From an uncultured Draconibacterium sp. (GTDB taxonomy: Bacteria > Bacteroidota > Bacteroidia > Bacteroidales > Prolixibacteraceae), in contig NZ_OY781884.1 of NCBI RefSeq assembly GCF_963677155.1, forward strand, positions 2,868,134 to 2,932,133: a stretch of 64,000 bases of DNA, read 5' to 3'. Every line of letters starts with the position of its first letter. Position 1 is the stretch's first letter. A program made the translations under genes and the position numbers. Shown one piece after another: positions 16,466-29,815 of the stretch. A model generated the notes under the pieces. It was not told the DNA's origin. It did not search any database and worked only from the letters and a program-made list of their open reading frames with translations.

Positions 16466-16466
16466 T

Positions 16467-16859
16467 TTATCCTTTAATTGTTATTGATTTTTCGTCGTCG
16501 GAAACCGATGAGTCGAGTATTGTAAGGTTCTTGTATGCAGGTCCTTTTATAACCTGTCCTTGCAGATCGTATTCCGATCCATGACAAGGACAAACCAGCT
16601 TGCCGCTTTCCATTTTGTCAATTTTGCATCCCAGGTGGCTGCAATGCGATGAAAAAACCGTTGTTTGATTGTTTGAGTTTACAATAATGTATTTGTCGAA
16701 GAACTGCACTCCTTTGTTCCTGTTTAGCGGAACCGACACTTCTTCTGCACCGGAAGCTGCAATATGTTGGAGCGTTAATTTATTCCAAATGAATGCAAAA
16801 AACGAAACAAATCCCACCACAGCTACTTTCAAAAATACTCTTCGGTTTTTGGTGCTCAT
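16467..16859 (-). CDS. Rieske [2Fe-2S] protein
   Basis: A 130-residue protein starting at the ATG at 16859-16857 (MSTKNRRVFLK). A longer frame from 16970 exists, but its extra 37 residues are not Rieske-like. The N-terminus has a twin-arginine-type NRRVFLK followed by a membrane helix, so the domain is anchored on the periplasmic side. The cluster ligands are CSHLGC and CPCHGSEYD, with the closing KGPAYKNL. It is transcribed immediately before the cytochrome b/multihaem fusion and is the expected high-potential partner of that cytochrome b. Confidence 0.93.
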   Translation of the reverse strand: MSTKNRRVFLKVAVVGFVSFFAFIWNKLTLQHIAASGAEEVSVPLNRNKGVQFFDKYIIVNSNNQTTVFSSHCSHLGCKIDKMESGKLVCPCHGSEYDLQGQVIKGPAYKNLTILDSSVSDDEKSITIKG

Positions 16860-16886
16860 TAATTTTCTCTTTGTCACAAATGTAGT

Positions 16887-16907
16887 AAATTGGTTAAAAT
16901 CCAATTT
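16887..16907. promoter_or_regulatory. Inverted repeat upstream of the Rieske gene
   Basis: AAATTGG (16887-16893) and CCAATTT (16901-16907) form a perfect 7-bp inverted repeat with a 7-base spacer. It is centred about 38 bases upstream of the Rieske ATG, where a repressor or activator could act. There is no T-run, so a terminator is unlikely. Confidence 0.4.
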
Positions 16908-17154
16908 TGTTCCATTTTTCGGTGTAAATGTATTGGAAAAATTGATCAGAATTATAATTCCGATAGGCAAATGTTTCTAGTTTTCAGTAGCGGAGGGGAT
17001 GACAAAGGTGCATACAGATATGTTTTACAACTTAATTTTTCGAACAGCGTTTTATGATATTCGAATATTTAATTTTTGTCGACTGTTTTATCGTTAGACA
17101 TTTAAGCAATGTTTAAATTAGCTATGGTTCAGAAAGGGGGTGGATCGCTGTAAG

Positions 17155-17440: not shown

Positions 17441-19696
17441 ATGAAGACAAGACGGGATTTTATCAAAATTTCAACTGCCGGTGCCGGAGCTGCAGCCATA
17501 AGTTTTAAAGCTTTTGGTTCAAAAGGTTTCGGTCTCTTTGAATCGGAGACCGAAGGGCCGGTAAGTGATGAGGATCTTACTCCGTATCCAACTTATTGCG
17601 AAGTATGTTTTTGGAAATGTGCTGCGTGGGCTTATGTCGACAAAAACGGAACCATACGAAAGATTGTTGGCAATAAGAATGATCCGCATTGTAACGGTCG
17701 TTTGTGTCCGCGAGGTACGGGCGGCGTTGGTATGGTTTACGATGAAGATCGCTTAAAAACACCACTGATAAGAGATACGCGTAAAGATGGATCGCAGTAT
17801 TTCAGAGAAGCTACCTGGGATGAGGCACTGAATAAAGTTGCCGATAAAATGAAGGAAGTGAAAGAAAAGTACGGTCCTGAGTCATTCGGATTGTTTAATC
17901 ACGGAACTCCCGGAAGTCATTTTCACCACTTGTTGCGTGCTTATGGTTCGGAGAGTAATGCCGAGCCTGCGTTTGCCAATTGTCGTGGTCCTCGTATGTC
18001 GGCTTATTTTTCAACTTTTGGTGCTTATGTAGGTTCGCCTGAATGTACCGATATCAGAGATACAAAATGTTTGGTTTTAATTGGTTCGCACCTGGGCGAA
18101 AATATGCACAATTCGCAGGTGCAGGAAATGTCGGATGCCATTGATAACGGTGCAACTATTATTACGGTTGATCCACGTTTCTCAACAGCTGCAGCGCATT
18201 CAAATCACTGGTTGTCAATCAAACCGTCAACCGATATTGCATTGTTAATGGCATGGATTCACGTGCTGATTTACGAAGGTTTATACGATAAAGATTACGT
18301 TGAGCAATACACATTTGGTCTTGATTATTTAAAAGATCATGTAAAAAATATGACTCCGGAATGGGCTTATGGAATTACTACCATCGAGCCGGAAGAAATT
18401 AGAAGAACTGCCCGTGCTATGGCTGGAGCAGCACCTTCTGTAATTATCCATCCGGGGCGCCACGTAGTTTGGTACGGAGACGATACACAGCGTGAACGAG
18501 CCATGGCAATTCTTACTGCTTTGTTGGGATCATGGGGTAAACGCGGGGGGTTATATTTCCCGGAAGGCGTTTCTGTTCCTGCCTTCCCTCACCCTCATTT
18601 CCCTGAGCCAGAATGGACATGGAAAGACTGGAATGAAGATCGATTTCCGCTGGCGACAATGGGAATTACTACCGAGGCTTTAAAAGCTTCTGTTCCAAGA
18701 TATAATTATAAACACCAGCTAAAAGCATGGTTAGTGGCCGGTACAAACCTGCCATTATCAATGCCGGATAAGGCTTTGTTTAAAGAAGCCGCTGATTCGG
18801 TTGAGTTTATTGCCGTTATGGATACCATGCCAATGGATATTACGGGTTATGCTGATGTGGTTTTCCCTGAGGCAACTTATCTGGAGCGTTACGATGTAAT
18901 TCGTTCGGCAGCTAATCGCGAGCCAAATATTGCATTGCGTATGCCGGCTATTGAACCAAAATACGATTCGAAACCAGGTTGGTGGATTGCCAAACAAATT
19001 GGCGAACGTTTGGGCTTGCACGATTACTTTAACTACGATGACTATTCCGAAGTAATCGACTGGCAGTTAAAACAGCTGGGCACCTCGTTGGAAGAAATGA
19101 AAAAAATTGGGGTTAAGAAATACCCGCGTAAAAGTGGTCCGCTGTATTTGGGTGATGGAGAAGACTATAATTTCAATACCACTACCGGAAAAATTGAATT
19201 GTATTCAGTTGATTTTTCCGACCACGGTTTTGATCCTATTCCAAAGTATACGAAGCATCCAGAACCGCCTCAGAATTTCTATCGCTTAATTTATGGTCGT
19301 GCGCCAATGCACACTTTCAGCCGTACTTCAAATAATCCTAACCTTTTTGATTTGATGAGAGAAAATAGCGTTTGGGTAAATCCGAAAGTTGCTGACTTGT
19401 GGGGACTGAAGAACGGACAGAAAGTATGGTTGCAAAACCAGGACGATGCTATCACTTCGTTTCCTGTTAAAGTTCGGGTAACCGAACGCATTCGCTGGGA
19501 TTCGGTGTATATGGTTCACGGATTTGGTCACAAAAATAAAAAACTCTCCAGAGCATTTGGAAAAGGAGCCAGCGATACTGAAATGATAACAAACGTTGCC
19601 GTTGACCCGATTATGGGGGGAACCGGAATGAGAGGAAACTTTATAACATTTTTAACAGAAGATCCTGCGGGGGAGAGAAAGGAGGTTAAAGCATGA
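17441..19696 (+). CDS. PsrA/PhsA-family molybdopterin oxidoreductase, catalytic subunit
   Basis: A 751-residue periplasmic enzyme with a twin-arginine signal (TRRDFIK). The [4Fe-4S] ligands are C53, C56, C60 and C89 (CEVCFWKC...RLCPRG). C181 (FANCRGPRM) is at the usual position of the molybdenum ligand. The MGD-binding segments (GSHLGEN, NGATIITVDPRFS, LLGSWGKRGG, and the C-terminal dinucleotide domain starting at about YGRAPMHTF) are all present. Length, cluster spacing and the following B and C genes fit polysulfide or thiosulfate reductases. These take electrons from menaquinol and release sulfide. Arsenate reductase or another sulfur substrate cannot be excluded by eye. It overlaps the next gene by 4 bp. 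Confidence 0.88.
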   Translation: MKTRRDFIKISTAGAGAAAISFKAFGSKGFGLFESETEGPVSDEDLTPYPTYCEVCFWKCAAWAYVDKNGTIRKIVGNKNDPHCNGRLCPRGTGGVGMVYDEDRLKTPLIRDTRKDGSQYFREATWDEALNKVADKMKEVKEKYGPESFGLFNHGTPGSHFHHLLRAYGSESNAEPAFANCRGPRMSAYFSTFGAYVGSPECTDIRDTKCLVLIGSHLGENMHNSQVQEMSDAIDNGATIITVDPRFSTAAAHSNHWLSIKPSTDIALLMAWIHVLIYEGLYDKDYVEQYTFGLDYLKDHVKNMTPEWAYGITTIEPEEIRRTARAMAGAAPSVIIHPGRHVVWYGDDTQRERAMAILTALLGSWGKRGGLYFPEGVSVPAFPHPHFPEPEWTWKDWNEDRFPLATMGITTEALKASVPRYNYKHQLKAWLVAGTNLPLSMPDKALFKEAADSVEFIAVMDTMPMDITGYADVVFPEATYLERYDVIRSAANREPNIALRMPAIEPKYDSKPGWWIAKQIGERLGLHDYFNYDDYSEVIDWQLKQLGTSLEEMKKIGVKKYPRKSGPLYLGDGEDYNFNTTTGKIELYSVDFSDHGFDPIPKYTKHPEPPQNFYRLIYGRAPMHTFSRTSNNPNLFDLMRENSVWVNPKVADLWGLKNGQKVWLQNQDDAITSFPVKVRVTERIRWDSVYMVHGFGHKNKKLSRAFGKGASDTEMITNVAVDPIMGGTGMRGNFITFLTEDPAGERKEVKA

Positions 19697-20226
19697 GATA
19701 TGCAATGGCAATCGACACTAAAAAATGTGTTGGGTGTGGCGACTGTGTAGTGGCCTGTCAAACAGAAAATAATGTGCCACATGGTTACTGCCGCGACTGG
19801 ATTGTTGAACGCGTTGACGGAACGTATCCGAGTTTAAGTCTTGAATTTCGTTCAGAGCGTTGTAATCATTGCGATAATTCTCCGTGTGTGAGGTGTTGTC
19901 CAACAGGGGCAAGCCATATCGAAGAAGGAGGAATTGTTACGGTTACTCACCATAAATGTATTGGCTGTGGGGCCTGTATTCAATCGTGCCCTTACGATGC
20001 GCGTTATTCCCACCCCGATGGATATGTTGATAAATGTACGTTCTGTTTACACCGTGTTCAGAAAGGACAAAATCCGGCTTGTGTTGATGTGTGTCCTACC
20101 AGGTGTTTGTATTTTGGCGACTTGGACGATCCGAACAGCGATGTTTCGCTGGCCATCAAAGACCGTTCATGGAAAGTACTGGCACCCGAGGCCGGAACAA
20201 AACCGCAGTTGTATTTTCTAACCTAA
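19693..20226 (+). CDS. PsrB/PhsB-type four-cluster ferredoxin subunit
   Basis: A 177-residue electron-transfer subunit with four [4Fe-4S] binding groups. Visible groups are CVGCGDCVVAC (residues 13-23), CNHCDNSPCVRCCP, CIGCGACIQSCP and CTFC...CVDVCPTRC. This is the standard DMSO-reductase-type B subunit that links the molybdoenzyme to the membrane NrfD protein. No signal peptide is seen, as expected if it is carried across by the Tat signal of the A subunit. The start codon overlaps the stop of the A subunit (ATGA). Confidence 0.94.
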   Translation: MRYAMAIDTKKCVGCGDCVVACQTENNVPHGYCRDWIVERVDGTYPSLSLEFRSERCNHCDNSPCVRCCPTGASHIEEGGIVTVTHHKCIGCGACIQSCPYDARYSHPDGYVDKCTFCLHRVQKGQNPACVDVCPTRCLYFGDLDDPNSDVSLAIKDRSWKVLAPEAGTKPQLYFLT

Positions 20227-20246
20227 TTCGTAAAACCTGATAGAAA

Positions 20247-21188
20247 ATGAAAGAAGAATTATTTGTAAGTGGACGAAATATACCAAACATTGATCCGTAC
20301 CTCAATATATGGCATTGGCAAATTCCGCTCTACCTCTTTCTGGGAGGTTTAGCTGCAGGAATTTTATTTTTTGCAGGTTTTTATGTTGTGCGTGGAAAAG
20401 CCGATAAAATGGTGGCAACCGTAAAAATTGCACCAGTTATTGCGCCGTTGGCACTGGTAATTGGTTTGGGGGCTTTGTTCTGGGATTTAAAGCATAAGCT
20501 GTTTTTCTGGCAATTGTATACCACTGTACGTCTTGATTCGCCAATGAGTTGGGGAGCCTGGACATTGATGGCAATTACCCCGTTATCAATTATCTGGGTA
20601 GCCAGTTATATGAAAGAACTGGTTCCTGGATGGGACTGGAAACTAGAGCTTATTAATAAAGCAGAAGCATGGGTGATAAAACAACGCATTGCTTTTGCCT
20701 GGGTGATGATGATATTGGCAATTATATTAGGTGTTTACACCGGAATATTGTTGTCGGCATTTAATGCACGACCTTTATGGAATACTTCGATTTTAGGACC
20801 ACTATTTCTTGTTTCGGGATTTTCTACCGGACTGGCAGCCATTATCTGGATGAGTAAAGATGTGAACGAGCGGAAAATATTAAGCCGAATCGACCTTGTT
20901 TTTATTTTCATCGAAATCTTTCTGATTGTTCACCTTTTTATGGGATTTCTGGCCGGTTCGGAAACAGCTATCGAAGCTGCAAATTTATTCCTTGGCGGAG
21001 AATTTACCGTAAGTTTCTGGGTGTTTGTTGTAGCCATCGGGTTGATTTTCCCTGCATTATTCGAAACTCTGGAAATTTGGGGAATGCACGTACCCAAATG
21101 GTTACCTCCGGTAATGATTTTATTTGGTGGTTTTATGTTCCGTTTCATTATGGTTGAAGCCGGACAAATTACACGTTATCTCTATTAA
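20247..21188 (+). CDS. NrfD/PsrC-type quinol-oxidising membrane subunit
   Basis: A 313-residue protein with eight or nine predicted membrane helices. The first helix pair includes IWHWQIPLYLFLGGLAAGILFF, quoted here only as LYLFLGGLAAG, a signature of NrfD/PsrC proteins. Further conserved features are PLALVIGLGALFWDLKH and SPMSWGAWTL. It binds menaquinol and passes electrons to the B subunit, anchoring the complex on the periplasmic face. It follows the B subunit by 20 bp and precedes the YeeE/YedE genes by 17 bp, so the molybdoenzyme and the transporter are on one transcript. Confidence 0.93.
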   Translation: MKEELFVSGRNIPNIDPYLNIWHWQIPLYLFLGGLAAGILFFAGFYVVRGKADKMVATVKIAPVIAPLALVIGLGALFWDLKHKLFFWQLYTTVRLDSPMSWGAWTLMAITPLSIIWVASYMKELVPGWDWKLELINKAEAWVIKQRIAFAWVMMILAIILGVYTGILLSAFNARPLWNTSILGPLFLVSGFSTGLAAIIWMSKDVNERKILSRIDLVFIFIEIFLIVHLFMGFLAGSETAIEAANLFLGGEFTVSFWVFVVAIGLIFPALFETLEIWGMHVPKWLPPVMILFGGFMFRFIMVEAGQITRYLY

Positions 21189-21205
21189 AAATAAACTATA
21201 ATAAT

Positions 21206-21742
21206 ATGAGTTCAGAACAAATAAATATAAAAGAACCGAAATACATCAACCCTTACCTGGGAGGTGTTTTACTCGGATTACTGGTTCTTGTAACTGTATT
21301 TATTACGGGCCGTGGTTTGGGAGCCAGCGGAGCAGTTAAAAGTGCAGTTGTAACAACTTCAAATTCAATTGCGCCAAAAGCTACTGAGGCAAACCATTAC
21401 ATGGGGCAGTTTCTTAGCGACGATCATTCGCCAATGTATACCTGGTTGGTTTTCGAATCGCTGGGAGTGTTGCTTGGCGGTATAATTTCCGGTATAATTT
21501 TCGGAAGAATGAAGAAATTCAGAATTGACAAAGGTCCTCAGATCTCCAATAAAAAAAGGCTCGTTTTAGCCCTTATTGGCGGAGCGCTTTTTGGTTTGGG
21601 TAGTCAGTTTGGCCGCGGATGTACTAGCGGAGCCGCATTAAGTGGAACCGCAACTTTTGCTCTTGGGGGCGTAATTGTAATGTTTGCCATTTTTGGTACG
21701 GGGTACGCAGTGGCTTACTTTTTTAGAAAATTTTGGATTTAA
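21206..21742 (+). CDS. YeeE/YedE-family sulfur transporter, subunit A (set 1)
   Basis: A 178-residue membrane protein with four or five helices, equal to the first half of a fused YeeE/TsuA protein. The family motif GRGCTSGAALSG includes C139, which corresponds to a pore cysteine in TsuA-type thiosulfate channels. GRGLGASGA near residues 33-41 is also shared with its paralogue at 26771. The second half is supplied by the gene 23 bp downstream. The family imports thiosulfate or other sulfur species. Here, next to a sulfur reductase, it may move substrate or product across the inner membrane. Confidence 0.9.
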   Translation: MSSEQINIKEPKYINPYLGGVLLGLLVLVTVFITGRGLGASGAVKSAVVTTSNSIAPKATEANHYMGQFLSDDHSPMYTWLVFESLGVLLGGIISGIIFGRMKKFRIDKGPQISNKKRLVLALIGGALFGLGSQFGRGCTSGAALSGTATFALGGVIVMFAIFGTGYAVAYFFRKFWI

Positions 21743-21765
21743 AAATCAGACAAAACTAAGATATT

Positions 21766-22368
21766 ATGGGACCTTTAATTCCTAATGGTGTAATTGGCGG
21801 CGGATGGGATTTTGTTATCGCAATTTTACTTGGAGTCGCATTTGGATTTATTCTCGAAGCATCCGGTTTTTCTTCTTCAAGAAACCTGGCCGGCGTATTT
21901 TACGGCTATAACTTTGTTGTGCTTCGCGTATTTTTTACTGCGTTAATCGTAGCAATGGTTGGTCTGTTATATTTCGATTATGTTGGCTGGCTTAATCTCT
22001 CACAAATATTTATTCTTCCAACGTTTTTAACCCCAATGATTGTTGGAGGCATAATAATGGGAGTAGGATTTGTATTGGGTGGTTTTTGCCCGGGAACCAG
22101 CTTTACCGGAATTGCCATTGGTAAAATCGATGCTGTGTTCTTTGCAATTGGACTTTATTTGGGGATATTCGGATTTTCTCTGGCATATCCTCTTTTCGAA
22201 GACTTTTTTACCAGTGGAGACCTTGGAAATGTAACGCTTATGGAAATTACCGGAATTCCGGCACCATACTTTGCAGTTGCATTTACAGTGGTAGCACTAA
22301 CTGCATTCTGGGTAACAATGTTTATCGAGAAGCGTGTGCGTAAAAACATGAAGCAATATAAATTCTAA
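21766..22368 (+). CDS. YeeE/YedE-family sulfur transporter, subunit B (set 1)
   Basis: A 200-residue membrane protein with about five helices, corresponding to the second half of YeeE. Its pore-cysteine motif is GGFCPGTSFTG with C108. It has the same ILEASGFSS and FYGYNFVVLRVFF segments as the B subunit of the second set. It follows subunit A by 23 bp, and the two halves probably assemble into one channel. It ends with a basic tail (EKRVRKNMK), which suggests a cytoplasmic C-terminus. The rhodanese-like gene follows 110 bp later. Confidence 0.9.
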   Translation: MGPLIPNGVIGGGWDFVIAILLGVAFGFILEASGFSSSRNLAGVFYGYNFVVLRVFFTALIVAMVGLLYFDYVGWLNLSQIFILPTFLTPMIVGGIIMGVGFVLGGFCPGTSFTGIAIGKIDAVFFAIGLYLGIFGFSLAYPLFEDFFTSGDLGNVTLMEITGIPAPYFAVAFTVVALTAFWVTMFIEKRVRKNMKQYKF

Positions 22369-22478
22369 ACGACTGAAAAGTGATGAAACGACCATGAAAA
22401 AATCTTTCGCACAAACGTGAATGACTATAATCATGAGAGTTCCATCTGTTACCATAAAGAATAAATAATTATAAACAG

Positions 22479-23090
22479 ATGAATAGAAACTATATCTTAC
22501 TAACCATATTAATGCTTGTGTTGGCGGTAGGGACCTTATTTTTGAGACGTGATGATGAGCCAAAACAAATTGCTCCTGAGGAGTTGCTACAGGAAATTAT
22601 TCAGCCCACACGATATGTAACAACCGACCAGGTAGCTAAGATGATCATTCAGGGCGATCCGTCGTTGTTGATGGTTGATGTTCGTCCGGTAGCTGAGTAT
22701 GCCGAATATGCATTGCCGGGTTCCTTAAATATTCCGCTCGAAGATCTGCTAAACGATGGAAACCTGTCGTATTTTGGAGTTCCCGGAGTAAAAGTGGTGT
22801 TTATCTCTAACGATGATATCAGAGCCGATCAAACATGGGTGCTTACCAAACGTTTGGGAATTGATGGTACTTATGTAATGAAAGGTGGTCTGAATTGCTG
22901 GATGGAAACCATAATTGATCCTTCGCAACCTAATGCTGATGCGCCTTCTGTTGATCACGAACTTTATGCATTTCGCAAAGGGGCACAAATTTATTTCACT
23001 GGTGCCGGATCGGTAGCTTCCGACGAAGGCAATGTTGAAGTGCAGGTACGCCGAAGAGAAAAAACAAGTGTTGCAGCCGGTGGTTGCTAA
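22479..23090 (+). CDS. Membrane-anchored rhodanese-like protein with C-terminal GGC tail (1)
   Basis: A 203-residue protein with one N-terminal membrane helix (about 5-22, ILLTILMLVLAVGTLFL) and a rhodanese domain at about 45-150. The fold is clear from LLMVDVRPVAEY and PGSLNIPL. The active-site loop, normally CxxGxRS, reads SNDDIRA, so the catalytic Cys position is Ser110. The protein ends in a basic, flexible tail VQVRRREKTSVAAGGC with the last residue Cys203. The next gene has exactly the same 16 residues. I infer that the terminal Cys carries sulfur in place of the lost active-site Cys. Localisation of the domain (probably periplasmic, N-in) is inferred from the anchor. Confidence 0.88.
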   Translation: MNRNYILLTILMLVLAVGTLFLRRDDEPKQIAPEELLQEIIQPTRYVTTDQVAKMIIQGDPSLLMVDVRPVAEYAEYALPGSLNIPLEDLLNDGNLSYFGVPGVKVVFISNDDIRADQTWVLTKRLGIDGTYVMKGGLNCWMETIIDPSQPNADAPSVDHELYAFRKGAQIYFTGAGSVASDEGNVEVQVRRREKTSVAAGGC

Positions 23091-23117
23091 TTTCTAACGA
23101 TTGAAAAAATTAACAGC

Positions 23118-23756
23118 ATGCATATACATGAACTAAATCCGTGGAGAACATTAATCGCAGTTTCAGCATTTGTGGTTATTCTCGTTATTGGCTTTGTAAC
23201 CATGCCAAAACCGTTGTTTGAATACCAAAAAAGCATGGATGAAAGTATTGAGGCTTTACTCGATGGTGAGGATTATTTCTACCCGTGGGAGCTGGAAGAG
23301 GTGATTGCCAATAAACCCGACAGTATCGTTTTGTTTGATATCCGCGATAACTTTGTTTTCGGACAGGGGCACATTCCCGGAGCAGAGAATTTGTCGGCAA
23401 ATACCCTGGCCGATCCCGATAATCTGGAGCGTTTAACAGCACTTCGCGATAGGGGGGTAACTGTAGTTTTATATGGCGAAAACGAACTGCAGGGCAATGG
23501 TCCGTGGATGTTTTTCCGCCAGGTAGGTTTCAACAATATCAAACTTCTGCTGGGCGGATATGAGTATTACAAAGCCAATGAAGATGACTTGTACAATACG
23601 ATTAATGATGATGCATATTTTAGCGGATTTCCGTGTTTTAACTATGCTGAAATGGCTGCACCTCAAAACGGTTCTGATTTAAATTCGGATCAGAATAATA
23701 AGCCTGTACAGGTGCGCCGACGCGAAAAAACAAGCGTTGCTGCCGGCGGTTGCTAA
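23118..23756 (+). CDS. Membrane-anchored rhodanese-like protein with C-terminal GGC tail (2)
   Basis: A 212-residue protein with an N-terminal membrane helix (about 11-29, LIAVSAFVVILVIGFVTM) and a rhodanese domain marked by IVLFDIRDNFVFGQGHIPGA, quoted in part: VLFDIRDNFVFGQGHIPG. The active-site loop reads YGENELQ around Gly120, with no Cys. The tail VQVRRREKTSVAAGGC ends at Cys212 and is identical to that of the preceding protein, although six of the 16 codons differ silently. It lies 27 bp after the first rhodanese gene. The sequence between domain and tail is acidic and probably flexible (NGSDLNSDQNNK). Confidence 0.88.
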   Translation: MHIHELNPWRTLIAVSAFVVILVIGFVTMPKPLFEYQKSMDESIEALLDGEDYFYPWELEEVIANKPDSIVLFDIRDNFVFGQGHIPGAENLSANTLADPDNLERLTALRDRGVTVVLYGENELQGNGPWMFFRQVGFNNIKLLLGGYEYYKANEDDLYNTINDDAYFSGFPCFNYAEMAAPQNGSDLNSDQNNKPVQVRRREKTSVAAGGC

Positions 23757-23783
23757 CCTGAAAAATTGAATAAATTTTTTACA

Positions 23784-23997
23784 CAAAGTGTTGACGATTG
23801 AAAATCGACAGAATATGTGCTTTGGACATATAGTTTGAGGATTTTCAATGTCAAGGTTAGCCCTGACAAATAATTGGGAAACAATTATTTCGTCAGCCCA
23901 AAGGGATTAATTCATTTTTATGAATTATTAAGGCTAAAAAACCACATTAGTATATATTTCTGAAAGTCCTGGTGAGTTTTTCATCGGGACTTTTTTT
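23784..23997 (+). ncRNA. Candidate structured RNA with three stems and a terminator
   Basis: Stem 1 pairs TTGACGATTGAAAATC (23791-23806) with GATTTTCAATGTCAA (23840-23854), with one bulged G. It encloses ATATGT/ACATAT (23813-23818 with 23826-23831). Stem 2 pairs CTGACAAATAATTG (23863-23876) with CAATTATTTCGTCAG (23882-23896) across a GGAAA loop. Stem 3 is TAATTCAT/ATGAATTA (23908-23927). A terminator follows. It could be a 3-prime-end-derived small RNA of the sulfur operon, a riboregulator of the octahaem gene, or an mRNA-stabilising 3-prime structure. It matches no RNA family I recognise. Confidence 0.5.
23964..23997 (+). terminator. Terminator after the first sulfur operon
   Basis: AAGTCCTGGTGA (23964-23975) pairs over 12 positions, with wobbles, to TCATCGGGACTT (23981-23992), followed by TTTTT. 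It closes the transcript that begins with the molybdoenzyme gene. Confidence 0.85.
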
Positions 23998-24441
23998 ATT
24001 TACGCCCTTTTAATAAATAAGCAGTTAATAGCTTATTCGATCTGTCTTTATTGTTCTCACTACGTTTTATTTTATATATCCCAATTACTTCTGCCGAAAA
24101 TGATGAGGCGTCTTTTAAGTATTGTTTTTACTGTTTAATTGATTTTGATTTAAGGTTTATATTTTCTGCATTTTTCAATCAATAAGGCAGGCCATTTTGC
24201 ATTATATATCAAAAATGAAAATATGTTATTTAAGATGAGTAGGGAATCTTGTTAATTAATATATAGGCATATATGATATATATGTTTTTTGACATAGTTG
24301 TTATAGACAATTGAATTATTGAAATAAATATGGTGTTGATTATGAGGATTGTAGATGTTTTTTGAAATGCATATCAAACAAATGATTAATTAATACTAAA
24401 TATAAATAACATAAGTGCAATTATTAATATCGAAATATGTA

Positions 24442-24449
24442 TATATTTG
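24442..24449 (+). promoter_or_regulatory. Candidate -7 element for the octahaem operon
   Basis: TATATTTG matches TAnnTTTG and lies 30 bases before the ATG at 24480, giving a short leader. No clear -33 TTTG element is seen. Confidence 0.42.
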
Positions 24450-24479
24450 AGGAAGTCTGTATGTGCAAAACCTAACTCA

Positions 24480-26090
24480 ATGATTAGAAGAATAGTAATA
24501 CCTTTAATTGTAGTGGTTGCTGTAATCGCGGCCATCCAGCTTTTTCATAAAGAAAAGCCGTTTTACGATTTAAAGCTTGAGAAGCTACGCCAGGAATATG
24601 CAATAAAGCCTGTCCCCTCGGTCGATCACAGTAAATTTACGATACTGCAGTCTGATTTTGAAACACCGCAGGAAGTAACGGAGGCATGTTTAACCTGTCA
24701 TACCGAGGTACACAAAGAGGTGATGAGTTCAAGTCACTGGAACTGGGAGCGTGTTGCTTATGTTGAAGGGCGGGGAATTCGTACAATTGGCAAAAAGAAC
24801 TTGTTAAATAACTTTTGTATCGGATCGCAAACCAACGAGCAGGCTTGTGCAAAATGCCACATCGGTTTTGGAATGAGTAATGATCATTTCGATTTTAAAA
24901 ATGCCCGAAATGTGGATTGTATGGTATGCCATGATAATTCGGAAGAATACAAAAAAGGTGCTTCAATGGCCGGTTACCCCGATCGTAGTGTAAACCTAAG
25001 CAAAGTAGCACAAAGTGTGGGACAACCTACCAAAAACAATTGTGGTGCGTGTCATTTTTATAGCGGTGGCGGAAATAATGTAAAGCATGGCGATTTAGAA
25101 GCAGCACAAACAGCCTGCACGCGCGATGTGGATGTACATATGGCGGCCAACGGATTGAACATGAGTTGTGTTGATTGCCATACGGCAGAAAATCATGTAA
25201 TAAAAGGTAAACTCTATTCGGTATCAGCAGAAAATATAAATCGGCTAAATTGCGAAGACTGCCATACAAACATGCCGCACTTTAACCAGATGTTAAACCG
25301 ACATACTGCAAAAGTTGCGTGTCAAACATGTCATATTCCAACGTATGCAAAAGAGAATGCAACAAAAATGCAATGGAATTGGTCAGATGCCGGGAAGTTG
25401 AAAAATGGAAACCCGTATATGGAAGAAGATTCGTTGGGTAATCACACTTATATGTCGATTAAAGGTTCGTTTATATGGGCCAGAAATGTACAGCCCGATT
25501 ATGTTTGGTTTAATGGAACTGCCGATCATTATATGATGGGCGATTCGATTACTGAAATTCCGGTACAAATGAATAAACTTTTTGGTTCGCACGACGATCC
25601 GAATTCGAAGATTATTCCTGTTAAAATTCATGTTGGAGATCAAATCTACGACAAGAAATACAATATTTTAATTCAGCCCAAATTATATGCTCCGGAAAAA
25701 GGTGACAGTGCCTACTGGAAAGATTTTAACTGGGATAAGGCTTCGGCTGCAGGAATGAGTAGGATCGGATTTCCTTATAGTGGCGAGTATGGTTTTGTAG
25801 AGACCGAAATGTATTGGCCGTTAAACCACATGGTTGCTCCAAAAGAGCAGTCGGTTTCGTGTGCCGAGTGTCATACACGAAACAACGGGCGACTTGCAAA
25901 ATTAACTGGCTTTTATGTGCCCGGCCGAGATAATAATCCAATTCTTGATGGATTTGGACGTTGGCTTATTATTCTTTCGCTGGGAGGCGTGTTGCTTCAT
26001 GCAGCCATACGTATATTCTATTCAATGAGAAATAAGGAGTACGAGACAGAGATAATTGACTACAATAATCAACACAATCAAAATAAATAG
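24480..26090 (+). CDS. Octahaem cytochrome c, tetrathionate-reductase (OTR) family
   Basis: A 536-residue protein. I start it at the ATG at 24480; a longer frame begins only with TTG. An N-terminal membrane helix (IVIPLIVVVAVIAAIQLF) anchors a periplasmic domain with eight CxxCH motifs: CLTCH, CAKCH, CMVCH, CGACH, CVDCH, CEDCH, CQTCH and CAECH. Haem number, spacing and the long haem-free stretch between the seventh and eighth motifs fit the octahaem tetrathionate reductases described from Shewanella. That family also reduces nitrite and hydroxylamine in vitro, so substrate is not certain. A second membrane helix lies near the C-terminus. A cytochrome b gene follows 2 bp later and is the probable electron donor. 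Confidence 0.9.
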   Translation: MIRRIVIPLIVVVAVIAAIQLFHKEKPFYDLKLEKLRQEYAIKPVPSVDHSKFTILQSDFETPQEVTEACLTCHTEVHKEVMSSSHWNWERVAYVEGRGIRTIGKKNLLNNFCIGSQTNEQACAKCHIGFGMSNDHFDFKNARNVDCMVCHDNSEEYKKGASMAGYPDRSVNLSKVAQSVGQPTKNNCGACHFYSGGGNNVKHGDLEAAQTACTRDVDVHMAANGLNMSCVDCHTAENHVIKGKLYSVSAENINRLNCEDCHTNMPHFNQMLNRHTAKVACQTCHIPTYAKENATKMQWNWSDAGKLKNGNPYMEEDSLGNHTYMSIKGSFIWARNVQPDYVWFNGTADHYMMGDSITEIPVQMNKLFGSHDDPNSKIIPVKIHVGDQIYDKKYNILIQPKLYAPEKGDSAYWKDFNWDKASAAGMSRIGFPYSGEYGFVETEMYWPLNHMVAPKEQSVSCAECHTRNNGRLAKLTGFYVPGRDNNPILDGFGRWLIILSLGGVLLHAAIRIFYSMRNKEYETEIIDYNNQHNQNK

Positions 26091-26092
26091 AA

Positions 26093-26728
26093 ATGGCCAA
26101 AGTATATATCTATAAAGGATTCAATCGTTTCTGGCACTGGTCGCAGGCAGCACTGATTTTGTTTTTAGCAGTAACCGGTTTCGAAGTGCATGATTCAATT
26201 CATTTGTTTGGTTACGAAAAGGCAGTTTATTTTCATCGTGTAGCTTCTTATGCTTTTCTGGTACTTATTGCTTTTGCCATATTTTGGCATGCAACAACGG
26301 GCGAATGGAAACAATATATCCCGAATGTAAAAATGTTAACGGCACAAATCAACTATTACATAAGCGGGATTTTTAAGAAAGAACCACACCCCACTAAAAA
26401 AACACCACTTCGGAAACTGAATCCGCTTCAGGCTTTTACCTATTTAGGTTTTAAGCTTGTTTTGGTGCCAATGATGGTGATTTCGGGTTTGTTGTATATG
26501 TATCATAAAACAGTTAATGCCAACAACGAGATTGTTATTCGGGATATTAATCTTAATAGCATTGCAAACTGGCATTCTTTTGGAGCTTTTTTATTAGTGG
26601 CTTTTGTAATAATTCATGTTTACATGACTACGACCGGACATACTTATACCTCGAATATTAAAGCTATGATTACCGGTTACGAAGAGTTGGACGATGAAGA
26701 ACAACATGCCGACAAACACAATAAATAG
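26093..26728 (+). CDS. Cytochrome b561-type membrane subunit
   Basis: A 211-residue protein with four membrane helices of the prokaryotic cytochrome b561 / Ni,Fe-hydrogenase b-type family. Haem-b ligand candidates are His in FNRFWHWSQAAL, FHRVASYAF, FWHATTG, NWHSFGAF and IIHVYMTTT. It starts 2 bp after the octahaem cytochrome stop. It probably oxidises menaquinol and hands electrons to that cytochrome, forming a simple quinol-to-tetrathionate respiratory module. The C-terminus is short and charged, in the cytoplasm. Confidence 0.88.
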   Translation: MAKVYIYKGFNRFWHWSQAALILFLAVTGFEVHDSIHLFGYEKAVYFHRVASYAFLVLIAFAIFWHATTGEWKQYIPNVKMLTAQINYYISGIFKKEPHPTKKTPLRKLNPLQAFTYLGFKLVLVPMMVISGLLYMYHKTVNANNEIVIRDINLNSIANWHSFGAFLLVAFVIIHVYMTTTGHTYTSNIKAMITGYEELDDEEQHADKHNK

Positions 26729-26744
26729 GAAAAGTTAGGGTAGA

Positions 26745-26764
26745 AATTTTAATCAATTAAAATT
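26745..26764. promoter_or_regulatory. Short inverted repeat before the second transporter pair
   Basis: AATTTTAAT (26745-26753) and ATTAAAATT (26756-26764) form a perfect 9-bp inverted repeat with a 2-base centre. It ends 6 bases before the ATG at 26771, so it may act as an operator or influence translation of the second YeeE/YedE pair. All-AT composition makes a chance origin possible. Confidence 0.3.
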
Positions 26765-26770
26765 GAAAAG

Positions 26771-27289
26771 ATGAGATCAAGAAAATATATGAATCCTTAT
26801 CTGGCAGGTTTCCTTTTAGGATTAACCTTATTGGCTACCATTTACATTACCGGGCGTGGATTGGGAGCAAGCGGTGCAATGAAAAGTGTTGTAATTGAGG
26901 GGGTAAATACTATTGCGCCTCAACATGCCGAAAATACGCACTACTATGCCAAGTATGCAGAAGAGCATCCGAATGGTCCGATGCGTTCGTGGCTTGTGTT
27001 TGAAGTGCTGGGAGTTATGATTGGTGCTTTCTTTTCCGGGGTAGTTTCTGATAGAGTTGGATGGAAACTGGAAAAAGGACCAAGAGCAACAAATACAATG
27101 CGTGTTGTTGGTGCTATCGTTGGCGGTGCTTTATTTGGCCTGGGGTCTCAGCTTGGCCGGGGATGTACCAGTGGGGCGGCACTTAGCGGTATGGGAGTGA
27201 TGTCGTTTGGAGGTATTATTACAATGATGGCCATTTTTGGAATGGCTTATATGCTGGCTTTTTTCTTCAGACGATTGTGGCTGAAATAA
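26771..27289 (+). CDS. YeeE/YedE-family sulfur transporter, subunit A (set 2)
   Basis: A 172-residue membrane protein clearly paralogous to the one at 21206. The two share NPYLAGFLLGL-type starts, ITGRGLGASGAMKS and the pore motif GRGCTSGAALSG with C132. It is the first half of a split YeeE/YedE channel; the second half follows 35 bp downstream. The gene sits directly after the octahaem/cytochrome b pair, so each reductase module in this island is followed by its own transporter pair. The transported sulfur species is not known. Confidence 0.9.
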   Translation: MRSRKYMNPYLAGFLLGLTLLATIYITGRGLGASGAMKSVVIEGVNTIAPQHAENTHYYAKYAEEHPNGPMRSWLVFEVLGVMIGAFFSGVVSDRVGWKLEKGPRATNTMRVVGAIVGGALFGLGSQLGRGCTSGAALSGMGVMSFGGIITMMAIFGMAYMLAFFFRRLWLK

Positions 27290-27324
27290 TTATAAACCTT
27301 TACAACTGATAAAAGAATAGTATT

Positions 27325-28524
27325 ATGGCACCATTAGTTCCTGATATCATTGGCAATGAATTCAATTTGGTAGTGGCTTTATTTGTTGGTATAGCCTTCG
27401 GATATATACTCGAACAAGCTGGATTCTCGAGCACAAAAAAACTGGTAGGTTTATTTTATGGCTACGATTTTACCGTATTACGCGTATTTTTTACAGCGGG
27501 TATAACTGCTATGATTGGAGTTGTTTTATTCGCTCATTTTGGTTTACTCGATATTAACTTAATTTATATAAACCCCACATTTCTGTGGTCGGCAATTGTT
27601 GGTGGCGCAATAATGGGGGCCGGTTTTATTATTGGTGGTTTTTGCCCGGGAACAAGCGTTTGTGCAGCATCAATTGGCAAAATCGATGGTTGGGCATTTA
27701 TTTTTGGGTCATTAATCGGAATTCTGGCTTTTTCGGAGCTATATCCTGTATTCGAGCCATTGTATATGGCAAAAGCCATGGGGCCGGTTCGTATCGATGT
27801 TTTTCTGGGATTGTCGCCAGTGACCTGGGCCGTTATATTAACGGCTATTGCAATTCTGGCTTTTTACGGAACTACCTGGGTAGAGTACCGTGTACGCAAT
27901 AAACAATTAAAGTTTACTAGTTTTACACTCTATCGTACTTATTTGGTATCAGCCATTCCTTTTGTGTTCATTTTGCTTGTTGCCATTATTCCGTCGCGAA
28001 ACGAAAGAATACAAAAACAAGTTGCCGATAAAAAAGAACAGGGGAAATGTGTTTTTAAAGAAATTTCTGCAGATAAACTCGCTGATGAATTGGTAAATAA
28101 TTACTACAAGGTAAACCTAATTGATGTACGTTCAAAAGAGGAATTCGAGAAATGGCATTTACCATTGGCAATTAATATTCCTTTGGATGAATTCCTCGAC
28201 CGGAAGTATGAGGATTATTTCAAACAAAAACACAAAACAAATATTTTTTATTCGAATGATGCTGTAACGCACAAAGAGGCCTGTTTAACGGCTCGTTTTG
28301 TTGGTAAATCGAATAACCTGATTTTGCGCGAAACAGCCGACGATTTTCAGCAGATCATTCTACAGGCAGAAAAACCGGTACCAAATGCGCCGAAAGAAGT
28401 TTACGAAGAATACTTGTTTCGTTCCGAGGCTGCACGAAAACTTACCGAATTACAAGCAGCTTTCGAAAATCTGAATAAACCGGTAACCAAAGAGGTGAAA
28501 AAAGCAACGGGTGGTTGTAGTTAA
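27325..28524 (+). CDS. YeeE/YedE subunit B fused to a rhodanese domain with GGC(S) end
   Basis: A 399-residue fusion. Residues 1-190 are the second YeeE half, with pore motif GGFCPGTSVC (C107, plus an extra C113 not present in set 1). An additional helix (about 212-230, AIPFVFILLVAIIP) then replaces the anchor of the stand-alone rhodaneses. Residues about 250-350 are a rhodanese domain (LIDVRSKEEFEKWHLP). Its loop reads YSNDAVT, so the catalytic Cys position is Ser310. The protein ends KKATGGCS, with Cys398 second from last. The fusion ties rhodanese and transporter together physically and supports the same pairing for the separate genes of set 1. Confidence 0.9.
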   Translation: MAPLVPDIIGNEFNLVVALFVGIAFGYILEQAGFSSTKKLVGLFYGYDFTVLRVFFTAGITAMIGVVLFAHFGLLDINLIYINPTFLWSAIVGGAIMGAGFIIGGFCPGTSVCAASIGKIDGWAFIFGSLIGILAFSELYPVFEPLYMAKAMGPVRIDVFLGLSPVTWAVILTAIAILAFYGTTWVEYRVRNKQLKFTSFTLYRTYLVSAIPFVFILLVAIIPSRNERIQKQVADKKEQGKCVFKEISADKLADELVNNYYKVNLIDVRSKEEFEKWHLPLAINIPLDEFLDRKYEDYFKQKHKTNIFYSNDAVTHKEACLTARFVGKSNNLILRETADDFQQIILQAEKPVPNAPKEVYEEYLFRSEAARKLTELQAAFENLNKPVTKEVKKATGGCS

Positions 28525-28651: not shown

Positions 28652-29815
28652 ATGTCAAAGATCCTGGTAATAGATGATGAGAGAAGTATTCGGAACACCT
28701 TAAAAGATATTCTTGAATATGAAAAATATGAAGTAGATCTGGCAGAAGATGGAACAAAAGGAATTGAGAAAATTCGTTCGGCCGAATACGATATTGTACT
28801 TTGTGATATAAAAATGCCGGGACTGGATGGCATTGAAGTATTGGAGCGCTTGGTGGTTTTAGCTCCCGATACTCCGGTGGTAATGATTTCGGGACACGGA
28901 AATATTGATACCGCTGTTGATTCGATAAAAAAAGGTGCCTTCGATTATATCGAAAAGCCACTTGATTTGAATCGTTTGCTGATTACCATTCGCAATGCCA
29001 TGGATAAATCGACCCTGGTTACCGAAACAAAAATTCTGAAGAAAAAGGTTAATAAGAAATTTGAGATCATTGGCGAATCAAAAGCTATTACCGAAATTAT
29101 TGAAATGGCCGACCGTGTGGCGCCAACCGATGCAAGGGTTTTAATTACTGGTGGCAACGGATCGGGAAAAGAGCTGGTAGCCCGCCGAATTCACGATCAA
29201 AGTAATCGTGCATCAGAACCGTTTGTTGAGGTGAATTGTGCAGCTATTCCGTCGGAGCTGATTGAAAGTGAGCTGTTTGGTCACGAAAAAGGAGCTTTTA
29301 CTTCGGCAGTAAAACAACGCAAGGGAAAATTTGAACAAGCCAATGGCGGAACACTTTTTTTGGATGAGATAGGCGACATGAGTCTGCCGGCACAAGCCAA
29401 AGTTTTACGTGCATTGCAGGAGAGTGTTATCAACCGTGTTGGCGGCGATAAACATATAAAAGTTGATGTTCGCGTTGTGGCTGCTACCAATAAAAACCTG
29501 GCCAACGAGATCGATCAAAATAAATTTCGCGAAGACCTTTATCACCGTTTAAGTGTGATTCTTATTCATGTACCAACGCTTAACGAACGGCTTGATGATA
29601 TTCCTTTACTGGCCAATCATTTTATAAAACAAATTTGCGGCGAGTACGGAATGCAGGAAAAAACAATTACGGAAAAGGGAATAGAAGAGCTGCAAAAAAT
29701 AAACTGGACCGGTAATATTCGCGAATTCCGAAATGTGATTGAACGCCTGATAATTTTGTGCGATAACGAAATTACCGACGCTGATGTTTTGAAGTTTGCT
29801 GCGCCTTTGAAGTAG
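28652..29815 (+). CDS. Sigma-54-type response regulator without DNA-binding domain
   Basis: A 387-residue protein. Residues 1-120 are a receiver domain with DDE at about 7-9, the phospho-acceptor Asp in LCDIKMPG, Thr/Ser in VMISGHG and the Lys in YIEKPLDL. Residues 140-385 are an AAA+ domain of the NtrC type, with Walker A GGNGSGKE, the sigma-54-contacting GAFTSA loop, FLDEIGDM and the arginine-finger region. It ends at ADVLKFAAPLK, so the usual C-terminal Fis-type helix-turn-helix is missing. It may act from solution like H. pylori FlgR. No histidine kinase is adjacent, and a terminator separates it from the sulfur genes. Confidence 0.92.
   Translation: MSKILVIDDERSIRNTLKDILEYEKYEVDLAEDGTKGIEKIRSAEYDIVLCDIKMPGLDGIEVLERLVVLAPDTPVVMISGHGNIDTAVDSIKKGAFDYIEKPLDLNRLLITIRNAMDKSTLVTETKILKKKVNKKFEIIGESKAITEIIEMADRVAPTDARVLITGGNGSGKELVARRIHDQSNRASEPFVEVNCAAIPSELIESELFGHEKGAFTSAVKQRKGKFEQANGGTLFLDEIGDMSLPAQAKVLRALQESVINRVGGDKHIKVDVRVVAATNKNLANEIDQNKFREDLYHRLSVILIHVPTLNERLDDIPLLANHFIKQICGEYGMQEKTITEKGIEELQKINWTGNIREFRNVIERLIILCDNEITDADVLKFAAPLK

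Follow-up and report, generated by a model that had tools for sequence, protein, structure and literature searches.

PspE and Sud are periplasmic rhodaneses that act on sulfane sulfur by means of an active-site cysteine, and DsrC/TusE proteins are cytoplasmic and carry sulfur on a near-terminal cysteine of a flexible C-terminal arm. Here we compare with these and other described systems a group of rhodanese-fold proteins with a C-terminal Gly-Gly-Cys, encoded beside two-part YeeE/YedE channels in a 64,000-nucleotide stretch of DNA from an uncultured Draconibacterium sp. (assembly GCF_963677155.1, contig NZ_OY781884.1, positions 2,868,134 to 2,932,133; hereafter the window, to which coordinates refer unless a locus is named). 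Close counterparts are also found in sulfur transport. SoxY is established to bind sulfur at its GGCGG end (PMC6067878), and SoxYZ has been proposed to pass sulfur to SoxT1A, a transporter of the YeeE family (PMC11582611). In the S. thermophila YeeE, C293, C91 and C22 are the first to third cysteines of a relay, of which C17 of the cytoplasmic YeeD is the fourth (PMC11073785). A cluster of psrABC, two PF04143 (DUF395) genes and a rhodanese gene was noted in Bacteroidetes/Chlorobi in 2019 (PMC6338057). How carriers in the periplasm and channels of the YeeE family exchange sulfur is not settled, the step from SoxYZ to SoxT being only proposed.

The genes in question form two adjoining operons, called from gene order. 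Operon I (17441-23756, + strand) comprises Phs/Psr-like genes, YeeE half A, YeeE half B and genes for two rhodanese-fold proteins that both end RRREKTSVAAGGC. Operon II (24447-28524, +) encodes an octaheme cytochrome, a cytochrome b561, a second YeeE half A and a fusion of YeeE half B to a rhodanese ending KKATGGCS. Operon III, located elsewhere in the same genome, encodes both YeeE halves, a rhodanese ending EESQLDGGCE and a Cys-free rhodanese-like protein. The best explanation, which we consider fairly probable on the strength of sequence comparison and structural models, is that Cys-tipped rhodanese folds without catalysis serve as periplasmic swinging-arm sulfur carriers that dock at the split YeeE. 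The sequence features on which it is based are conservation of the tail, absence of both the active-site Cys and the third channel Cys, matching of tails within operons and co-occurrence with YeeE; from these we infer sulfur loading, docking to YeeE and the direction of flow.

Conservation of the C-terminal cysteine

Rhodanese 1 (22479..23090, +; 203 amino acids) and rhodanese 2 (23118..23756, +; 212 amino acids) are membrane-anchored and lack the catalytic Cys. The third domain belongs to a 399-residue fusion (27325..28524, +) consisting of YeeE half B, an extra transmembrane helix, a rhodanese domain likewise devoid of the catalytic Cys, and the tail. All three domains exceed the Pfam PF00581 cut-off of 22.2 bits (45.7, 53.8 and 35.1 bits), and their ends, GGC, GGC and GGCS, are present as described in an earlier note on this DNA. 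That note had also placed all three directly after a YeeE subunit. This is the case for rhodanese 1, since half B ends at 22368, but rhodanese 2 follows rhodanese 1, and the third domain is fused to a YeeE that is itself the half B, 3' of a half A (26771..27289, +). The last 16 residues of rhodaneses 1 and 2 are identical in protein, with 6 of the 16 codons differing.

In order to avoid selection on the tail, conservation was counted from the channel side, at loci retrieved by a search with YeeE half B; alignments of proteins preselected for GC ends, or containing the tail, were excluded from all figures on tail conservation and frequency. Rhodaneses were recognised with a local model built from GGC-ended proteins minus their last 20 residues, which a very divergent untailed neighbour might escape. 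A phylum-wide set of 395 genomes yielded 74 YeeE matches in 66 genomes, of which 70 loci were read (two of the other four are the remaining operons of our own genome and two are weak). A second set, referred to as the named set, comprises the best 80 of 589 confirmed loci from species genomes.

An adjacent rhodanese with a closed frame was present in 67 of the 70 phylum-set loci, and in 66 of these 67 a Cys is among the last four residues. The ends are GGC (32 proteins), EGC (19), MGC (4), GGC followed by A, G, S or T (7), GLCS (2), FQC (1) and DGC (1). In the named set, 75 loci have an adjacent closed rhodanese and 78 of 79 proteins carry a Cys at such a position (77 GGC, 1 EGC). The conservation of the terminal Cys among relatives, on which the earlier note depended, is thus borne out. 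The two exceptions have a broken frame with the tail readable in another frame (L139) and ambiguous bases within the gene (L219). Loci without an adjacent closed rhodanese are weak YeeE matches (L144-L146), contig ends (L150, L153, L184 and L215) or, in L200, a locus where a rhodanese ending GGC sits 663 bases from YeeE. At the edge of the family, L137, L142 and L143 show the variant ends FQC and GGLCS.

Hosts in the named set (best 80 of 589 loci) include Draconibacterium, Maribellus, Bacteroidales and Flavobacteriaceae, as well as metagenome-assembled genomes labelled Neomarinimicrobiota, Ignavibacteria, Chlorobiota and Acidobacteriota. Among closed open reading frames of at least 80 amino acids, GGC or GGCx ends occur in 275 of 368 that match the rhodanese model against 2 of 3,398 others, one of the two being probably a cut rhodanese; the loci overlap and some were selected by tail, so that these counts are illustrative. 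A general GGC tail on other operon proteins was rejected on the same count. The GGC tails of the window rhodaneses are not due to chance, and in the sequences compared the invariant thiol is that of the tail Cys, the two glycines being dispensable. Selenocysteine, an idea prompted by a weak TsoB match, was considered and discarded: the tails use an ordinary Cys codon and the stops among relatives are TAA, TAG or TGA, so no selenocysteine readthrough is needed.

Carriers of the QbsE type are made as precursors with GGC- or GGCx-like ends, which the present tails resemble in form. A protease would then remove the Cys with any following residue, and the exposed GG end would be activated to a thiocarboxylate. 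We rejected this explanation as the GG is not conserved, changing in the EGC, MGC, GLCS, DGC and FQC proteins listed above, and the Cys is constant; moreover, the fold is that of rhodanese rather than beta-grasp and the location is predicted to be periplasmic. It strikes us as extremely unlikely.

Loss of catalytic and channel cysteines

When aligned to canonical rhodaneses of the same genome, the tailed proteins display Ser, Gly or Ala at the position of the active-site Cys. The three window domains have Ser, Gly and Ser there, which sets them apart from catalytic rhodaneses. Among YeeE-adjacent rhodaneses the catalytic Cys is retained in 2 of 67 (phylum set) and 1 of 79 (named set, best 80 of 589 loci), and among 270 tailed proteins from all loci in 10. 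The D-x-R motif is well preserved in the same 270 proteins (Asp in 267, Arg in 266). The proposal that sulfur is first bound by the rhodanese active-site Cys is therefore not supported, that residue being absent from nearly all YeeE-adjacent proteins; to judge from the alignments, the thiol that carries sulfur is probably that of the tail Cys. The rare YeeE-adjacent rhodaneses of L127, L129 and L169, which keep both the active-site Cys and the tail, are useful intermediates.

The tail Cys might instead be structural or regulatory, forming a metal or disulfide tether or sensing the redox state of the channel, with no sulfur carried. A tether or gate could equally be formed by a single invariant Cys on an arm that is flexible and in many cases basic. 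However, 171 of the 270 tailed proteins have no other Cys within the last 170 residues with which it could pair (a disulfide to a channel Cys could still form), the GGC and GGCGG ends match that of SoxY, and the setting is one of sulfur transport and respiration. We regard such a role as quite improbable.

The YeeE parts of the window are the half A at 21206..21742 (+), with a C293-like Cys in RGCTSG; the half B at 21766..22368 (+), which on alignment to 6leo has a C91-like Cys in GGFCPG and no C22-like Cys; the second half A; and the N-terminal part of the fusion. All four exceed the PF04143 cut-off of 27 bits (69.8, 53.8, 68.3 and 55.3 bits), and all fall outside the TsuA/YeeE equivalog of NCBIfam, where three of them score 39.4, 20.2 and 44.2 bits against a cut-off of 400 and the fusion is not listed. 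Among relatives, the first relay Cys is kept by half A in 199 of 199 and the second by half B in 200 of 200, and the C22-equivalent, cytoplasmic Cys is kept in none of 199, being replaced by Ser, Gly or Thr in every case. The split channels thus possess two of the three relay cysteines of TsuA/YeeE, and the absence of the third indicates that the cytoplasmic side differs from that of TsuA. A Pfam scan of ten window proteins revealed no TusA/YeeD homologue, neighbours in other genomes not having been searched for one.

Predicted topology and structure

In its AlphaFold model (alignment of 61 rows; mean predicted local distance difference test score, pLDDT, of 88), rhodanese 1 consists of a helix (residues 3-20), the rhodanese domain, a second helix (157-174) and a low-confidence tail from residue 177, that is, residues 177-203 encoded by 23007..23087 (+). 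In the model of the fusion (85 rows, mean pLDDT 87), an extra helix (199-221) separates the channel half from the rhodanese, and residues 394-399 have pLDDT below 50. Foldseek matches the models to solved rhodanese structures, which confirms the rhodanese fold, and the tail is predicted to be disordered.

The net charge of the stand-alone proteins (n = 187) is +2.4 before the anchor, counting the alpha-amino group, and -0.25 after it; the corresponding values for the fusions (n = 51) are +2.6 on the N-terminal side of the extra helix and -0.35 on its C-terminal side, the former exceeding the latter in 44. According to the positive-inside rule, this asymmetry places domain and tail in the periplasm, and the lipoprotein and secreted GGC-tailed rhodaneses (signals judged by eye) are consistent with this location. 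The swinging arm envisaged in the earlier note, which would take up sulfur and touch the channel, is supported in part by the conserved tail Cys, the predicted disorder and the extracytoplasmic location deduced from charge.

Similarity of tails within operons

In 38 operons of the named set, the first two tailed non-lipoprotein proteins shared 78% of residues over the six positions that precede the final three, compared with 33% when partners were shuffled across operons (standard deviation 0.03; maximum of 2,000 shuffles 0.43), a null in which phylogeny is not modelled. The domains of the same pairs were no more alike than random ones (20.9% identity against 21.2% shuffled). Lipoprotein and secreted rhodaneses also match the tails of their locus neighbours (0.25 against 0.15; 46 of 5,000 shuffles, p 0.009, 12 loci). 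In L178 (1907-3257) both tails are acidic (EEVEEEEGC) rather than basic, and are again alike within the operon.

Tandem adjacent genes can exchange sequence, and the match might then be mere gene conversion between neighbouring paralogues with no partner implied. At shared tail residues, however, codons agree in 40% within operons (34 pairs) and 42% between operons; over the 317 positions for which codon use of the genes concerned was computable the agreement is 38% against an expected 41%, and in none of the 34 pairs are the last eight codons identical. Silent sites that differ as much as between operons argue against conversion, and so does the match of the lipoprotein and secreted rhodaneses. 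An old conversion followed by saturation of silent sites retains a small probability, and overall we consider conversion very unlikely.

The tails of operons I, II and III differ from one another in our own genome, and those of I and III differ in related genomes too, which makes it probable that the partner of the tail is encoded in the operon. By eye, no Phs- or Otr-like gene adjoins operon III (a CxxCH protein is encoded 3.4 kilobases downstream), which leaves YeeE as the common partner. From the pattern of tail sequences, then, the tail seems to be matched to a partner from its own operon, for which YeeE is the likeliest candidate.

Co-occurrence with YeeE and with respiratory enzymes

A PF00581 census of 31 order-level genomes, our own left out, returned 99 rhodanese open reading frames in 25 genomes. 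Where a split YeeE lies immediately upstream or belongs to the same chain, 19 of 20 closed rhodaneses have Cys as the final or penultimate residue, and one further protein runs off its contig. With a split YeeE on the same stretch in another placement, 2 of 3 do so, and with none on the stretch, 9 of 75. Four of these nine end in GGCC, SCC, ECGC or SGCC, and four others, from three genomes (G022 twice, G025 and G028), end in GGC and have a YeeE elsewhere in the genome or off the contig. The ninth, a G014 protein ending GGCE, is presumably a TrhO-like tRNA hydroxylase. Two more of the 75, both from G038, end in GGCGG beside a full-length YeeE that lies outside the reach of the split-YeeE models.

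PF04143 is present in 12 of 30 order genomes, and all 12 have a rhodanese with a GGC-type end; among the 18 without it, only G014 has Cys-ended rhodaneses (the TrhO-like protein and a 131-residue protein ending ECGC). Eight lipoprotein rhodaneses ending GGC (L353-L359 and L363) have no YeeE within 1.5 kilobases, but their genomes match the tailed family strongly or possess a locus with full-length YeeE. Tail and channel therefore co-occur by genome and not always by operon, so that the linkage of GGC ends to YeeE put forward in the earlier note stands at the genome level, one apparent chance case aside, and fails as a rule of adjacency for lipoprotein rhodaneses. No natural fusion of both YeeE halves with a rhodanese was encountered in the loci fetched for that check.

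The link to sulfur reductases that the earlier note had drawn is upheld, tailed rhodaneses being usually tied to respiratory enzymes of the sulfur type. In the named set (best 80 of 589 loci), the homologue closest upstream is one of phsC in 59 of 80 loci, and homologues of phsA, phsB and phsC are all present in 54 of those 59; cytb takes the nearest position in 7 more loci and otr in 2 more. These counts also speak for a reading in which the tail Cys works for the reductase, be it the Phs/Psr-like enzyme or the octaheme cytochrome, and YeeE only supplies or removes thiosulfate. Sud, a periplasmic rhodanese that feeds polysulfide reductase in Wolinella, would be the model. Such a service to the reductase is, in our estimate, unlikely: the tail persists in operon III, which by eye has neither enzyme adjoining, and one architecture fuses the rhodanese domain to YeeE half B.

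Proposed role of the tailed rhodaneses

In the carrier scheme that we prefer, a rhodanese fold without catalytic Cys would be anchored in the membrane through a helix of its own or through being fused to the channel. Sulfane sulfur made in the periplasm by a respiratory enzyme or a catalytic rhodanese would be loaded on the tail Cys at the periplasmic face, as persulfide or S-thiosulfonate, and the arm would dock at the mouth of the two-part YeeE and hand the sulfur to the first relay Cys. The tail Cys would become the 'zeroth' Cys of the relay, mirroring the cytoplasmic 'fourth' contributed by YeeD to TsuA. Where a Phs/Psr-like or octaheme-cytochrome respiratory enzyme is co-encoded, sulfur could be received from it or delivered to it. 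The reverse route, with sulfur exiting through YeeE for reduction, may also be possible, import being slightly favoured as the direction.

Several observations weigh against this scheme. Some second rhodaneses are untailed (L171, L202, L213, L265 and L004 of our own genome). Lipoprotein rhodaneses exist that combine a GGC or GGCGG end with the catalytic Cys, so loss of that Cys is no rule for every tailed rhodanese. By eye, the full-length YeeE that was read retains the third channel Cys, so tailed systems do not all share the loss of that residue. Finally, tail charge is uncorrelated with the charge of the first loop of YeeE half A (rho 0.06; n = 131 of 186 loci) and gives no sign of a co-varying contact; the partner to which the tail is matched may be the other rhodanese or the reductase.

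A sister system with full-length YeeE

A split YeeE is absent from G038. Its full-length YeeE of 404 amino acids, with the RFC motif kept (by eye), precedes a lipoprotein rhodanese with the end SSGGCGG, additional rhodaneses, a protein of the Porin_O_P family, two proteins resembling DsrE, one of them just under the Pfam cut-off, and FlpD. A search whose query included the GGCGG tail gave 24 loci, with GCGG, GCG or GCGE ends in 12, GGC in 8 and neither in 4. At 11 loci with a full-length YeeE of the G038 type, the adjacent lipoprotein rhodanese ends in GCGG or GCGE in 10 and keeps the active-site Cys in all 11. Six of these 11 loci (L345-L349 and L351) encode a second lipoprotein that ends in GGCGG or GGCG and has Ser at the active site; here catalytic and Cys-less lipoprotein rhodaneses with GGCGG-type tails stand side by side, one tail being missing in L351.

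The succession of porin, lipoprotein carrier, inner-membrane channel, DsrE and FlpD suggests import, at least in G038. The cluster at L258 and L316 (full-length YeeE, GGCGG lipoprotein rhodaneses, Porin_O_P, DsrE-like proteins and FlpD) is a candidate route of sulfur import from the outer membrane to the cytoplasm.

Other genes of the operons and their surroundings

Operon I opens with a Tat-type (twin-arginine translocation) molybdopterin oxidoreductase (17441..19696, +; Pfam PF00384), a Phs/Psr-like catalytic subunit whose Tat signal is under its cut-off. Its top NCBIfam match, PhsA PRK15488, reaches 445.6 bits, short of the 694 required for assignment to PhsA. It is followed by a PhsB/PsrB-like 4Fe-4S subunit (19693..20226, +; Pfam Fer4_11 and others) and an NrfD/PsrC-like membrane subunit (20247..21188, +), for which NCBIfam cyt_nit_nrfD gives 123.5 bits, under the cut-off of 347.6. 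Operon II begins with an octaheme c-type cytochrome of the tetrathionate reductase family (24447..26090, +; NCBIfam TIGR04315, 583.5 bits, above the cut-off of 375) and a membrane cytochrome b561-type subunit (26093..26728, +; PF01292 above cut-off). No Sox genes were recognised among the scanned window proteins with Pfam and NCBIfam, neighbours at large not having been profile-searched.

Divergent from operon I, at 13760-16970 (-), lies a gene for a 901-residue protein whose N-terminal part, by eye, resembles cytochrome b and in which CxxCH motifs are numerous; it adjoins a Rieske-like protein and is possibly an electron partner. Directly 3' of the fusion gene, a response regulator of the sigma-54 type (28652-29815, +; by eye) is possibly the regulator of operons I and II. 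As regards operon III, its Cys-free rhodanese-like protein (L366, 8954-9388, +) is encoded 3' of the tailed rhodanese, and a convergent gene (L366, 9411-10454, -) encodes a two-domain lipoprotein rhodanese that keeps the active-site Cys and has no GGC tail; similar two-domain lipoproteins end in GGC at other loci.

Comparison with known systems

The system is compact, often confined to one operon and sometimes to one chain, with one invariant tail Cys that can be mutated, and its hosts include Draconibacterium and Maribellus, genera that have named strains. Many annotated rhodaneses are probably carriers rather than enzymes, and the Cys tail provides a simple sequence mark for sulfur-handling operons. 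We are evenly divided as to a broader proposition, that these proteins make up an unrecognised class of periplasmic carrier, widespread in Bacteroidota and found also in genomes labelled Neomarinimicrobiota, Ignavibacteria and Acidobacteriota, in which rhodanese folds would be tethers for a Cys-tipped arm tuned to the YeeE of its own operon, completing the relay from the periplasm, and which would have arisen on more than one type of rhodanese, converging with SoxY. Within the open-licence PMC literature searched, the tail, the loss of the catalytic Cys and the GGCGG rhodanese were not found described.

Compared with PspE and Sud, the tailed proteins have the same fold and predicted location, but they have lost the active-site Cys on which PspE and Sud rely, and it is the tail that provides the thiol. 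With DsrC/TusE they share the Cys-tipped C-terminal arm and differ in location, those proteins being cytoplasmic, and in their unrelated fold. The 2019 cluster of psrABC, DUF395 and rhodanese has the same gene content, and the account of it is one of annotation, in which neither the tail nor the loss of the catalytic Cys figures (PMC6338057). PmpA and PmpB likewise represent YeeE as two short proteins with one conserved Cys each, of about 130 amino acids against about 170 and 200 here; the part of that account devoted to PmpA/PmpB mentions no tailed rhodanese (PMC11582611). YeeE-YeeD (TsuA-TsuB) also combines a YeeE-family channel, relay cysteines and a partner that offers an extra Cys (PMC11073785), but YeeD is cytoplasmic and TusA-like, whereas here the added Cys is predicted to be periplasmic and the channel is in two parts and without the third Cys.

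A further likeness is to SoxY, a periplasmic carrier with a glycine-flanked C-terminal Cys and a proposed recipient of the YeeE family (PMC11582611, PMC6067878). The fold is different, Pfam recognising in the window proteins only Rhodanese (plus Sulf_transp in the fusion), the GGC is usually at the very end, and YeeE is split. The window proteins, with GGC or GGCS, lack the GGCGG of SoxY, to which the GCGG or GCGE of the 10 of 11 relatives beside full-length YeeE comes nearer. By analogy, the carrier probably works like SoxY, as its rhodanese-fold analogue, and is no SoxY.

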